Source: Nonomuraea typhae (GTDB taxonomy: Bacteria > Actinomycetota > Actinomycetes > Streptosporangiales > Streptosporangiaceae). Taken from it: a stretch of DNA of 64,000 nt. Of this stretch, positions 9,164 to 24,749 are shown piece after piece (position 1 is the first letter of the stretch; each line of letters begins with the position of its first letter). Made by a program: the position numbers and the translations under genes. The notes under the pieces were generated by a model that was given only the letters and a program-made list of their open reading frames with translations, did no database searches and was not told the DNA's origin. The stretch is taken from NCBI RefSeq assembly GCF_009760925.1, contig NZ_VRLV01000001.1, positions 930,001 through 994,000 on the forward strand, read 5' to 3'.

Positions 9164-10117
9164 TCAGCTGTGTGGATGGCTGGTGAGGTAGCCGCCCATC
9201 GCGCGGAAGAAGTCGACGGCGCGGTGTGCGCGGTCGTCGTCGGTGCGGATGCGCTTCAGCACCACGCCGTACTCGGTGCCGCTGCGCGCGGCGGGGCCGC
9301 AGACGACGGCCACGCCGTCGCCCTCCGGGCGGAAGACCCGGCCGGGCGTGCCGCCCAGGCGGAGCTTCGACACCGATGCGGACAACACCCGGATGCGCTC
9401 GCCGCCGAAGTGGGCGAACGCGTTGGGGTACGGGTCGGCCTGGGCCCGGACCAGGTTGACGATGTCCTCGGCCGGCCAGGTCCAGAAGATCCGGCTGTCC
9501 TCGGCCGAGCGCTTGTGGAAGAACGTGGCCTTGGCCGGATCCTGCTTGGTCCAGTCGGTGCGGCCGGAGTCGATGAGCTCGATGGCCTCCAGCGTCATGG
9601 GCGCGAACAGCTCGATCGTCTTGTGGAACAGGTCGGTCACGGTGTCGCCGTCCTCGACGGGAACCCGGCGCTGCAGCACGATGTCGCCGAGGTCGAAGCT
9701 CTCGTTCATGAAGTGGACGGTGACGCCCACCTCGCGCTCGCCGTTGATGAGGGCCCAGTTGAGCGGGGCGAAGCCGCCGTAGCGGGGCAGCAGCGCGTCG
9801 TGGATGTTGATCGCGCCGTGCTTGGCCAGGCCGTAGATGCGCGGCGCCACCCAGGTGCGCCAGTCGGAGGAGACCAGCAGGCCGGGAGCCAGCTCACGCA
9901 GGAGCTCGGCGACCTCCTCGTCGTTGGCGTAGCGGCGCTCCAGCACCGCGATGCCGTGCTCGGCGGCGAGGCCGGCCACCGAGTCGTTCCAGATGGTCTC
10001 GTAAGCGTGATCGCTGGTGGGATGGGTGATGACGAGGGGGATCTCGTGGCCGGCGGTCAGCAGGGCGTCGAGAACCCGGTGACCCCACGTCTGATATCCC
10101 ATGAAGACAAGGCGCAC
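9164..10117 (-). CDS. methionyl-tRNA-formyltransferase-like N-formyltransferase
   Basis: A 317-residue 10-formyl-tetrahydrofolate-dependent formyltransferase. The N-terminal Rossmann domain holds the family catalytic triad: N and H in INIHDALLPRYGG and the D in FDLGDIVL. A C-terminal OB-like domain follows (about 210-310). Related stand-alone enzymes formylate N5-hydroxyornithine or amino termini in siderophore and NRPS clusters. Here it is the last gene of the NRPS operon (63 bp after the MFS gene), so formylation of a peptide building block or the first loaded residue is the best guess. Start GTG 10117 follows a GGAAAGGA site. No ornithine N-monooxygenase is present in the window. Confidence 0.88.
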   Translation of the reverse strand: MRLVFMGYQTWGHRVLDALLTAGHEIPLVITHPTSDHAYETIWNDSVAGLAAEHGIAVLERRYANDEEVAELLRELAPGLLVSSDWRTWVAPRIYGLAKHGAINIHDALLPRYGGFAPLNWALINGEREVGVTVHFMNESFDLGDIVLQRRVPVEDGDTVTDLFHKTIELFAPMTLEAIELIDSGRTDWTKQDPAKATFFHKRSAEDSRIFWTWPAEDIVNLVRAQADPYPNAFAHFGGERIRVLSASVSKLRLGGTPGRVFRPEGDGVAVVCGPAARSGTEYGVVLKRIRTDDDRAHRAVDFFRAMGGYLTSHPHS

Positions 10118-10180
10118 GCCGTCGTTCCTTTCCTTCGCGCAGGTTGTGCAAGGAGAAATGCGGTCTCTCCGCCGGAGGGT

Positions 10181-22035: not shown

Positions 22036-23571
22036 GTGACAGACAAGTTATGGGGCGGACGCTTTGCCGAGGACATCACTCAGGAGGTTCTCGACTACAC
22101 GCTGACCGTCGACGTCGACGAACGGCTCGTCTTCGCCGACCTCTGGCAGGACCTCGCGCACATGCTGATGCTCGGCGCAAGGGGAATCGTCACCGGCGAG
22201 GTCGCGCAGGCCGTGCTCGGCTCGCTGCTACGGCTCTGGGACCGCGCCGAGCGGGGTGAGCTGCGGCTGCGCCCCGAGCTCGAGGACGTGCACTTCAACC
22301 TCGAGCAGCAGGTCATCGAGGAGCTCGGCCGCGAACGCGGCGGCCACCTGCAGACCGCCCGCTCGCGCAACGACCAGGTCTCCACCGACACCCGCATGTA
22401 CCTGCGGCGGATCCAGCTCGACGCCGTCGCGGCGAACCTGGACCTGATCGGCGAACTGCTCGCCTTCCCCGAGACGGACCTGCTGGCGATCCTGCCCGGC
22501 TACACCCACAGCCAGGCCGCCCAGCCGATCTCCGTCGCGTTCTGGAAGAGCGCGCACGCCAGCATGCTCCTGCGCGACGTGCGCCGGTTGCGCGGCGCGT
22601 TCGAGCGCACCGACGAATGCCCGCTGGGCGCCTGCGCGCTGGCCGGCACCTCCTTCCCGCTCGACCGCGAGCTCACCGCCCGGCTGCTCGGCTTCGGTGG
22701 CGTGCTCAGCCACGCGCTGGACGCCACCAGCGCCCGCGACTACCTCATCGAGAGCGCCGCCGCCTTCGCCGTCGGCGGCAACAACCTGTCCCGCATGGCG
22801 GAGGAGATCGTCATGTGGAGCGGCCACGAGTACCGCCTGGTCGAGGTCGCCGACGCCTACGCCACGGGCAGCTCGATCATGCCCCAGAAGAAGAACCCGG
22901 TGGTCGCCGAGCTGGCCAGGGGCCGCGCCGGGCGGACCGCGGGCACGCTCGTCCAGCTCCTCACCATGGCCAAGGGCGTCACCCTCGGCTACAGCTGCGA
23001 CCTGCAGGAGGACAAGCCCTATCTCTGGCACGCCATCGACGCCTACCTCTCCACGCTGCGCATCGTCACCGGGCAGACCAGAGGGCTGCGCTTCGACGGC
23101 GCCCGCGGCGAGCAGCTGTGCTGGGACAACTTCTCCACGGCCACCGAACTGGCCAACCACCTCGTCACCGCGCACGGCCTGCCCTTCCGCGAGGCGCACC
23201 ACGTCAGCGGCGCTCTCGTCGCGGCCCTGCTGAAGCGCGGCGCCACGCTCAGGGACACGGCCGCCGCCGCGGAGATCCTCGGCGAGCTGGGCCACCCCGT
23301 GGACGAGCCCGTGCTCGCCCGCATCTTCGCGCCCGCGGCCGCGGTGGCCGGCTACACCAGCCCCGGCGGCACCTCACCGCGAAGCGTCACGGCGGTGCGC
23401 GCCGAGCTGAGTTCCGCCGCAGAGTCCCACGCCGCCTGGCTCGGCGCGGCCCGGCGGCGGCTCCGCGACGCTCAGGAAGCCACCTTCGCCGCGGCCCGCG
23501 ACGTCGCCGCCGGAGCCGCGATCGCCAAGGCCCTCGACCGCATCGCCCCCTCGCTCAACGGAGAGCAGTGA
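22036..23571 (+). CDS. argininosuccinate lyase paralogue (fumarase/aspartase superfamily)
   Basis: A 511-residue enzyme, longer than usual ArgH (about 460-480). It has the superfamily signature GSSIMPQKKNP (catalytic Ser loop, about residue 277), ARSRNDQV (substrate loop) and GYTHSQAAQP (catalytic His), all intact. It should release fumarate from argininosuccinate or an analogue to leave a guanidine. Segments such as LTVDVDERLVFADLW and the altered GYTHSQAAQP differ from the housekeeping actinobacterial protein as I remember it. This suggests a dedicated or transferred copy. The start is GTG 22036 with AAGGA upstream. It overlaps argG by one base (TGATG) and is divergent from the NRPS operon. 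Confidence 0.9.
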   Translation: MTDKLWGGRFAEDITQEVLDYTLTVDVDERLVFADLWQDLAHMLMLGARGIVTGEVAQAVLGSLLRLWDRAERGELRLRPELEDVHFNLEQQVIEELGRERGGHLQTARSRNDQVSTDTRMYLRRIQLDAVAANLDLIGELLAFPETDLLAILPGYTHSQAAQPISVAFWKSAHASMLLRDVRRLRGAFERTDECPLGACALAGTSFPLDRELTARLLGFGGVLSHALDATSARDYLIESAAAFAVGGNNLSRMAEEIVMWSGHEYRLVEVADAYATGSSIMPQKKNPVVAELARGRAGRTAGTLVQLLTMAKGVTLGYSCDLQEDKPYLWHAIDAYLSTLRIVTGQTRGLRFDGARGEQLCWDNFSTATELANHLVTAHGLPFREAHHVSGALVAALLKRGATLRDTAAAAEILGELGHPVDEPVLARIFAPAAAVAGYTSPGGTSPRSVTAVRAELSSAAESHAAWLGAARRRLRDAQEATFAAARDVAAGAAIAKALDRIAPSLNGEQ

Positions 23572-24749
23572 TGAAGATAGTTCTGGCGTACTCAGGCGGC
23601 CTCGACACCTCGGTGGCCCTGCACTGGCTCAAGCAGCGCTACGACGCCGAGATCATCGCCTTCTGCGCGGACATCGGCCAGCTCGAGCCCTTGGAGACCG
23701 TGCGGGAGCGGGCCCTGGCGACCGGCGCGTCGAAGGTGTACATGGAACCGCTCACCGACCGGTACCTCAGGGACTTCGCCCTGCCCGCCCTGCAGGCGCA
23801 CGCGCGCTACGAGAACAAGTACCTGCTGGCCGCGCCGCTCTCCCGGCCCCTGATCGCCCAGCGGATGGTCGAGATCGCCCACGCCGAAGGGGCCGAGGCG
23901 GTCGCCCACGGCGCCACCGGCAAGGGCAACGACCAGGTGCGCTTCTTCACCAGCGCGACCGCGCTCGACCCCGGCCTGAAGGTGCTGGCGCCGGTCATCG
24001 ACTGGGAGCTGACCAGCCGGGAGGCGGAGCTGGCCTATGCGGACGAGCACGGCATCGAGGTCTCGGTCAGCAAGGCCAAGCCGTACAGCATCGACACCAA
24101 CATCTGGGGCACCAGCATCGAGTGCGGCGAGCTCGACGACATCAACCAGCCGCCGCCCGGGCACGCCTGGCAGCTCACCGCCGACCCCAGGACCGCCCCC
24201 GACCGGCCCGAGCGGGTCACGGTGGGGTTCGAGGGCGGGGTCCCCGTCACCCTGGACGGCGACAAGCTGGACCTGGCCGCCCTCGTGACCCGGCTCACCG
24301 GCCTCGCCGCCCGCCACGGGGTGGGGCGCATCGACATCGTCGAGAGCCGGATCGTGGGCTTCAAGACCCGCGGCATCTACGAGGCGCCCGCGGCGACCGT
24401 GCTGATGGCCGCGCATGAGGAGCTGGAGGCGATCATCTTCGACCGCGAGACCCTGCACCACAAGCAGGGGCTCGCGCAGCGGTACGCCGAGCTGGCCTAC
24501 TACGGATACTGGTTCTCCGACCTGCGGCGCGCCCTGGACGGGTTCGTCGCCACGCTGCAGCCGCAGGTGACCGGCGAGGTGACCATGGAGCTGTACAAGG
24601 GCGGCTGCACCGTCGTCAGCCGGCACTCGCCGAACTCCCGCTACAGCGACACGCTGGCCACCTACGAGGCCGGCGACACCTTCGACCATCAGGCCGGAGC
24701 GGGCTTCGCCTACGTGTGGTCGCTGCCCATCCGCGGCTCGCATCGCTGA
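23571..24749 (+). CDS. argininosuccinate synthase paralogue
   Basis: A 392-residue ATP-dependent ligase that condenses a ureido group (citrulline or an analogue) with aspartate. The N-terminal PP-loop AYSGGLDTSVAL binds ATP. HGATGKGNDQVRF and the S-x-D-x-N region (PYSIDTNIWG) for citrulline/aspartate are present, so it looks catalytically competent. Residues 18-50 (ADIGQLEPLETV) read more like non-actinobacterial ArgG proteins than the typical Streptomyces one. Coupled to argH by a 1-bp overlap, it forms a complete ureido-to-guanidino conversion pair next to an NRPS whose A domains favour a basic residue. Confidence 0.92.
   Translation: MKIVLAYSGGLDTSVALHWLKQRYDAEIIAFCADIGQLEPLETVRERALATGASKVYMEPLTDRYLRDFALPALQAHARYENKYLLAAPLSRPLIAQRMVEIAHAEGAEAVAHGATGKGNDQVRFFTSATALDPGLKVLAPVIDWELTSREAELAYADEHGIEVSVSKAKPYSIDTNIWGTSIECGELDDINQPPPGHAWQLTADPRTAPDRPERVTVGFEGGVPVTLDGDKLDLAALVTRLTGLAARHGVGRIDIVESRIVGFKTRGIYEAPAATVLMAAHEELEAIIFDRETLHHKQGLAQRYAELAYYGYWFSDLRRALDGFVATLQPQVTGEVTMELYKGGCTVVSRHSPNSRYSDTLATYEAGDTFDHQAGAGFAYVWSLPIRGSHR

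Follow-up and report, generated by a model that had tools for sequence, protein, structure and literature searches.

A formyltransferase is the constant partner of an extra argH-argG pair in actinobacterial gene clusters, and the three genes may form a formamidine-building cassette

The window analysed here, a stretch of 64,000 nucleotides from Nonomuraea typhae (contig NZ_VRLV01000001.1, positions 930,001 to 994,000), carries a gene of the argininosuccinate-lyase family (argH) and a gene of the argininosuccinate-synthase family (argG), both divergent from a nonribosomal peptide synthetase (NRPS) operon whose last gene encodes a formyltransferase. The features of this cluster, in window coordinates, are as follows:

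22036..23571, plus strand: argH, argininosuccinate-lyase family (TIGR00838, 452.5 bits, cut-off 279.5)
23571..24749, plus strand: argG, argininosuccinate-synthase family (PRK00509, 531.7 bits, cut-off 334)
9164..10117, minus strand: Fmt/CchA-like formyltransferase, third cassette member (PF00551, 100.7 bits; PF02911, 60.8 bits)
10181..11455, minus strand: MFS transporter, probably an exporter (MFS_1 and MFS_3 above cut-off)
11474..11671, minus strand: MbtH-like protein, 65 amino acids (PF03621, 62.3 bits)
11685..16295, minus strand: NRPS2, domains C-A-T-C, 1536 amino acids (Pfam)
16292..21448, minus strand: NRPS1, domains A-T-C-A-T, 1718 amino acids (Pfam; 74-75% identity in three related genomes)
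21449..22035, no strand: divergent upstream region common to NRPS1 and argH (sequence)

This layout agrees with the initial annotation of this DNA, which had counted the five operon genes and had not named the formyltransferase. Base 23571 is common to the argH stop codon TGA and the argG start codon ATG, so the two genes are indeed coupled by 1 bp, and the five-gene operon runs divergently from them in the order NRPS1-NRPS2-MbtH-MFS-formyltransferase, from 21448 down to 9164. The motifs GSSIMPQKKNP in ArgH and SGGLDTS in ArgG, recorded there as well, are both intact. The MFS transporter (10181..11455) also matches the TIGR00900 and EntS models, both under their cut-offs. Next after the formyltransferase lies a small NAD-binding protein (8370-9125) that has no match above 60 bits in the relatives fetched; the conserved unit is therefore 9164-24749, the same limits as drawn previously.

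The window pair had been read as unlike the housekeeping actinobacterial proteins, and both alignments and trees uphold this. The source genome has three ArgG genes. A search for a second argG/argH set found argF, argR, argG and argH consecutive on contig C8, with ArgJ upstream (argF, argR and ArgJ by Pfam), so the window genes are not the sole copies, and they share only 43% (ArgG) and 40% (ArgH) identity with these C8 housekeeping proteins. The third ArgG, on contig C10 (G000:C10:129902-130966, L003), was typed by eye as resembling the E. coli type. An ArgG of this kind is listed in 53 of the 54 genomes of the genus, the exception (G033) being 63% complete, and a type-I ArgG match was not seen in 11 of the 54. 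In maximum-likelihood trees, the ArgGs of the 12 cassette loci described below form one group with support 100/99, and the 12 cassette ArgHs form a group in their own tree (100/100 as tabulated for the group, 100/99 as drawn on the branch). The housekeeping ArgG and ArgH of the genus stand apart from these groups with 100/100 in both trees, and the window pair is neither linked to argF or argR nor grouped with the housekeeping copies of the genus. A separate argG and argH lie elsewhere in each of the six cassette genomes examined (G000, G040, G057, G313, G980 and G999), which rules out that the cassette genes are housekeeping duplicates and, with the second set on C8 and the clades of their own, supports a dedicated extra pair as first proposed. 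The assembly is flagged as 7.09% contaminated; the cluster nonetheless lies on a contig of 1.4 Mb and has a counterpart in another genome of the genus.

We found the argH and argG cassette at 12 loci in Streptosporangiaceae, Streptomyces and Micromonospora. An orthologue of the window ArgG is present in one other genome (G040, 89%) among the 54 of the genus, own genome included, in 4 of 345 genomes of the order (E<=1e-130, own included), and in the own genome only among 394 class genomes sampled. A scan of named genomes for ArgH with exact peptide patterns, which was not exhaustive, gave 8 loci, 7 of which are the cassette at 65-86% identity, in Acrocarpospora (genome G057), three Streptomyces and three Micromonospora. 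The loci in G980 and G999 turned up when genus g87 was searched for the formyltransferase; we take this genus to be Streptomyces because the cassette ArgGs of these two genomes group with those of S. dysideae and Streptomyces CoH27.

All three cassette genes occur together at 12 of 12 loci. At the Streptomyces and Micromonospora loci (8/8), argH, argG and the formyltransferase gene follow in this order on the same strand, with the formyltransferase directly after argG, and at the Streptosporangiaceae loci (4/4) it lies at the end of the divergent NRPS operon. An NRPS operon of the window type is missing in 8 of the 12 loci, which weakens the idea of an arginine supply specific to this NRPS, and the remaining neighbors vary between NRPS, clavam-type and carbapenem-type genes. 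The formyltransferase, and not the NRPS, is the constant partner of argHG, and there is good support for a dedicated cassette of three genes that recurs.

The closest broad relatives of the cassette formyltransferases (55-59% identity in genus g87, up to 64% in the order) belong to the CchA type, named after the formyltransferase of coelichelin clusters. Formyltransferase matches occur in 111 of 246 genomes of genus g87 (E<=1e-60), two of them at 81-82% identity, and at E<=1e-70 in 12 of 296 of the phylum sample and 77 of 297 of the order sample. From among all these matches the best were fetched, giving 29 non-cassette loci for comparison; 21 of the 29 have an ornithine-monooxygenase match in their flanks of ~1.5 kb, none (0/29) has an argG match there, and those monooxygenase neighbors that were run through Pfam matched PF13434 (3/3). 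In the window and the cassette loci searched, the ornithine-monooxygenase query was without match, and a hydroxamate siderophore, a candidate raised by the formyltransferase, NRPS and EntS-like MFS transporter, was rejected on this ground. Residues N104, H106 and D142, which are presumably catalytic, are kept in the cassette formyltransferases. Cassette and CchA-like enzymes split into two groups, and the signature S84, D85, G114, A117, N120 and F141, six positions chosen post hoc from the comparison of the two, is present in 13 of 13 ArgG-linked formyltransferases and in 0 of the 29 others (L093, L098 and L099 were dropped from this count as copies of L063, L030 and L028). The CchA-like state at these positions is mostly NN/A/S/I/L, against SD/G/A/N/F in the cassette.

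One of the 13, kept out of the choice of positions and thus the sole independent test of them, comes from G786, a genome of another class in the same phylum. Here a formyltransferase gene (51% identity) lies directly before argG (57%), and the two sit behind genes for a pyridoxal phosphate-dependent decarboxylase and an aldehyde dehydrogenase. Used as a query against the 36 genomes of its order, the G786 formyltransferase found G786 itself alone (1/36). The G786 ArgG has a long branch and no settled place in the ArgG tree, and contig C22 of this genome carries another argG-family gene and an argH. Further upstream of the pair is a LodA-like protein of the lysine epsilon oxidase family (L063:2416-4419), and elsewhere in the genome (G786:C56:110964-112199) an ArgH-like stretch, under the argH cut-off, lies within an open frame of 992 residues.

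The window ArgG aligns with Thermus ArgG over 388 residues without a gap. The citrulline and aspartate contacts of human argininosuccinate synthase, as given in the accessible part of PMC13289927, were transferred by eye to the Thermus and window numbering: Y84, N120, R124, S182, E184, E258 and Y270, together with T116 and D121, are conserved in every cassette ArgG (12 of 12) and in G786, and because of this an amino-acid substrate remains likely. The citrulline-binding motif YLLGTS (available text of PMC7601404), as it stands in Thermus, is changed to YLLAAP in seven cassette ArgGs, that of the window among them, to YLVAAP in five, and to YLMAAP in G786. All 12 cassette copies and G786 have A at position 88, where each of the 31 other ArgGs aligned (3 of the genus and 28 from among the best phylum matches, all called type-I) has T or S and the C10 copy has T. 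For ArgH, the motifs GSSIMPQKKNP and SRNDQ and the Q and K of LQEDK are present in all 12 cassette sequences, and the loop YN[KR]DLQEDKE has become GYSCDLQ[ED]DKP, again in 12 of 12; at that loop, N is found in 27 of 27 and E in 25 of 27 other ArgHs, in an alignment without L013, L026, L027, L031, L050 and matches of fewer than 380 aligned residues. Judged from the alignments, ArgG and ArgH of the cassette seem functional, with an amino acid as substrate and an altered motif in the pocket.

Another function for an active ArgG would be that of an amide- or nitrile-forming enzyme, as in the ArgG-like nitrile synthetase of auranthine, with ArgH carrying out a separate elimination. The window ArgG does match the nitrile synthetase chains 9leh/9lei, and such an enzyme is referred to in the accessible part of PMC13060819. 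However, the match is weak (105 bits vs 398 bits for the Thermus argininosuccinate synthetase), T116 and D121 of the aspartate site are retained and argG overlaps argH, and we regard this explanation as very unlikely.

The initial annotation had raised the possibility that the pair turns a ureido precursor, or a citrulline-like residue, into a guanidine. A query for ornithine carbamoyltransferase (Pfam OTCace) gave just one chance stretch of 54 residues (E 0.22) in the cassette loci, and no match when the stretches from G980 and G999 were extended. A citrulline-like residue could still come from the housekeeping ornithine carbamoyltransferase, and membership in the ArgG and ArgH families with largely intact residues is in line with such a conversion in the product; but a carbamoyltransferase is not matched in the loci, the formyltransferase that is always present is given no role, and ArgG carries the Y-L-x-A-A-P change in its citrulline motif. 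The route from ureido to guanidine thus becomes less likely, and we consider it quite improbable.

The main rival to the reading that we prefer holds that argHG supplies arginine and that the formyltransferase separately formylates a peptide N-terminus or a side-chain amine. It would explain why the catalytic motifs and citrulline contacts of ArgG are kept, the acidic pockets of adenylation domains A1 and A3 could accept arginine, and the neighborhoods include an arginine-using CEAS at L022 and an OAT2-like ArgJ near several cassettes. Against this, the cassette loci gave no argF match, all 13 ArgGs have a changed citrulline motif, the formyltransferase is common to all loci whereas CEAS and this NRPS are not, and in G786 the formyltransferase and argG remain together without an NRPS. 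Arginine supply also leaves the common formyltransferase signature unexplained, and on balance we think it rather unlikely.

We favor instead, with a probability of roughly 0.6, the reading that the formyltransferase, ArgG and ArgH make up one tailoring cassette that builds a formamidine (an N-formimidoyl group, N-CH=NH, which is unusual and positively charged). From the genes, their separateness, their linkage and their residue signatures, all of which are observed, we infer its chemical steps, substrate and product. The formyltransferase would move a formyl group from 10-formyl-tetrahydrofolate to a side-chain amine, N5 of ornithine being the likeliest, to give N5-formylornithine, which is citrulline minus its terminal NH2; the sister CchA enzymes, we assume, formylate the side chain of N5-hydroxyornithine. 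ArgG would then adenylate the formamide oxygen with ATP and add aspartate, and ArgH would release fumarate while the aspartate nitrogen stays behind, giving the formamidine (N5-formimidoylornithine). This would be the end part of arginine synthesis, with a formyltransferase in place of the carbamoyltransferase. The window product might enter the tripeptide via adenylation domains 1 and 3, or the formamidine might be made on the finished peptide.

Several observations count against a formamidine cassette. ArgG and ArgH retain the majority of their catalytic and substrate residues and may therefore still make arginine. In G786, neither argH nor an NRPS lies within the 19.9 kb fetched, and the pair thus has no adjoining argH. 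The formyltransferase signature, apart from its post hoc choice, is shared in part by one non-cassette relative (L091), which also has A117 and N120. At 23 separating positions the G786 formyltransferase is cassette-like at 12, CchA-like at 3 and neither at 8, and at 15 separating positions (position 1 excluded) the G786 ArgG sides with the cassette at 6 and with the others at 3, and differs from both at 6. The changes at ArgG positions 126 and 143 are striking, but because the E. coli-type C10 copy also differs from type I there, they say nothing for a new substrate and were dropped. ArgJ was not seen near the L017 cassette or in the type with the NRPS operon, and the clavam genes at L022 include the arginine-using CEAS, which an arginine supply could explain as well.

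The proposed formamidine route has partial counterparts in known systems. With the ArgF-ArgG-ArgH synthesis of arginine it shares the ArgG and ArgH families, the activation of a C=O by ATP, and aspartate going in and fumarate out, but the cassette has a formyltransferase for the carbamoyltransferase, clades of its own and an altered citrulline motif. The CchA-type formyltransferase is similar in identity (58-59%, 13 aligned), Pfam domains and NRPS neighbor, whereas the cassette loci have no ornithine-monooxygenase match and a different residue signature. In purine synthesis, PurN formylates an amine, and with PurC or PurA followed by PurB aspartate donates the nitrogen and fumarate leaves; the logic is similar, but the ligases are unrelated and the substrates different. 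Orf1 (BD-12) and Fms14 (fortimicin) are FAD-dependent and make an N-formimidoyl group from glycine, as far as the accessible part of PMC10156733 goes; the predicted end group is the same, but the cassette would use a formyl donor, ATP, aspartate and other enzyme families. For the auranthine nitrile synthetase, the available part of PMC13060819 proposes ATP activation of an amide as the mechanism. This ArgG-like enzyme of an NRPS pathway ends in a nitrile, unlike the proposed cassette, and may serve by analogy as a precedent for amide activation by an ArgG-like protein in such a pathway.

Our literature search on formimidoyl or formamidine groups with argininosuccinate enzymes, NRPS, clavams or carbapenems, based mostly on listings and covering few subscription papers, found no such pathway, which is weak evidence of absence; the main text of PMC12482188, in its accessible part, contains none of the terms argininosuccinate, argG, argH, formyltransferase, formimid- and arginine. 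The sole natural-product route to N-formimidoyl that this search found is the FAD oxidation of glycine (PMC10156733, accessible part). The enzyme families of the cassette are known, and their combination and the proposed reaction would be new. If the formamidine reading is true, there would be a second, unrelated route to N-formimidoyl, by formyl and then aspartate, assembled from primary metabolism. A formyltransferase adjoining an ArgG with YLxAAP would then be a handle for genome mining, annotations of "extra" argGH in gene clusters would need revising, and the cassettes would point to unknown cationic peptides and perhaps to beta-lactams as well.

Genes of beta-lactam type lie near several cassettes. 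At all three Micromonospora loci, we observe relatives of CarA/beta-lactam synthetase (87 bits), CarC (166 bits), CarB (287 bits) and OAT2 (513 bits), these scores being from L019 or L020 alone and the homologs at the other loci being found by tblastn. In G999 (L084 with L077) the same four CarA-, CarB-, CarC- and OAT2-like genes are ~17 to 22 kb off, with NRPS genes between. In S. dysideae (L022), matches to CEAS (980 bits), PAH (510 bits) and CAS (423 bits) adjoin argH and are divergent from it; the PAH-like and clavaminate-synthase-like domains share one open frame (L022:4224-6869), possibly a fusion. At L017 a relative of PAH-CAS (82%) follows the formyltransferase at a distance of ~6 kb, and in the 21.5 kb covered at L018 CarB-like and OAT2-like genes alone were seen. 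The ~58 kb of G980 yielded none of the beta-lactam cores and no more than a CarB-like gene, a transporter of the EamA kind and a fragment of ArgJ. Other NRPS genes are present at L017, L018 and G999, all Streptomyces. Across the eight Streptomyces and Micromonospora loci, a CarB-like crotonase is nearby in every case (8/8), EamA is matched in seven, L017 being the exception, and an OAT2-like ArgJ lies at most ~20 kb away in six, with a fragment in a seventh; this ArgJ is a possible candidate for an ornithine source.

A bolder extension, which we hold to be doubtful, is that a transferable formamidine cassette serves several antibiotic scaffolds. The Streptosporangiaceae would use it to decorate a tripeptide, and Micromonospora and some Streptomyces, whose cassettes have CarA/CarB/CarC-like or CEAS/PAH/CAS genes close by, to decorate beta-lactams. 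Chemists put an N-formimidoyl group on thienamycin to obtain imipenem, and N-formimidoyl beta-lactams would, if this extension is true, be made naturally by an aspartate route.

The Streptosporangiaceae NRPS (n=4) encodes three adenylation domains, whose pockets in the window read by eye as DVENVGAVTK (A1), DVHNNALVFK (A2) and DVEDVGAITK (A3), in positions that follow GrsA numbering, with the last K assumed. The earlier claim that two of these domains have acidic or amide pocket residues stands for its acidic part, in A1 and A3, and the acidic residue is kept in both domains in 4 of 4 orthologues, likewise by eye. This suggests pockets in A1 and A3 that would fit a cationic side chain; the A2 pocket differs among the orthologues. 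In the last condensation domain of NRPS2 (residues ~1228-1239), SYLSLDG replaces HHxxxDG, and the pattern S/C-Y-L-S/N-L-D-G, with the histidines lost, is found in 4 of 4 orthologues.

Outside the cluster, the window encodes a CtaG/CopD copper-type membrane protein (27600-29693) and an FAD aromatic hydroxylase (33377-34879). Elsewhere in the source genome, an identical cluster occurs twice, with 11,001 bases at 100% (L032 and L033; G000:C14 and G000:C52), and comprises genes for an MFS protein, a member of the beta-eliminating-lyase family, a short ArgH-like protein (Lyase_1), an ATP-grasp/amino-acid ligase and an adenylation domain; this may reflect a terminal repeat or a duplication introduced in assembly.

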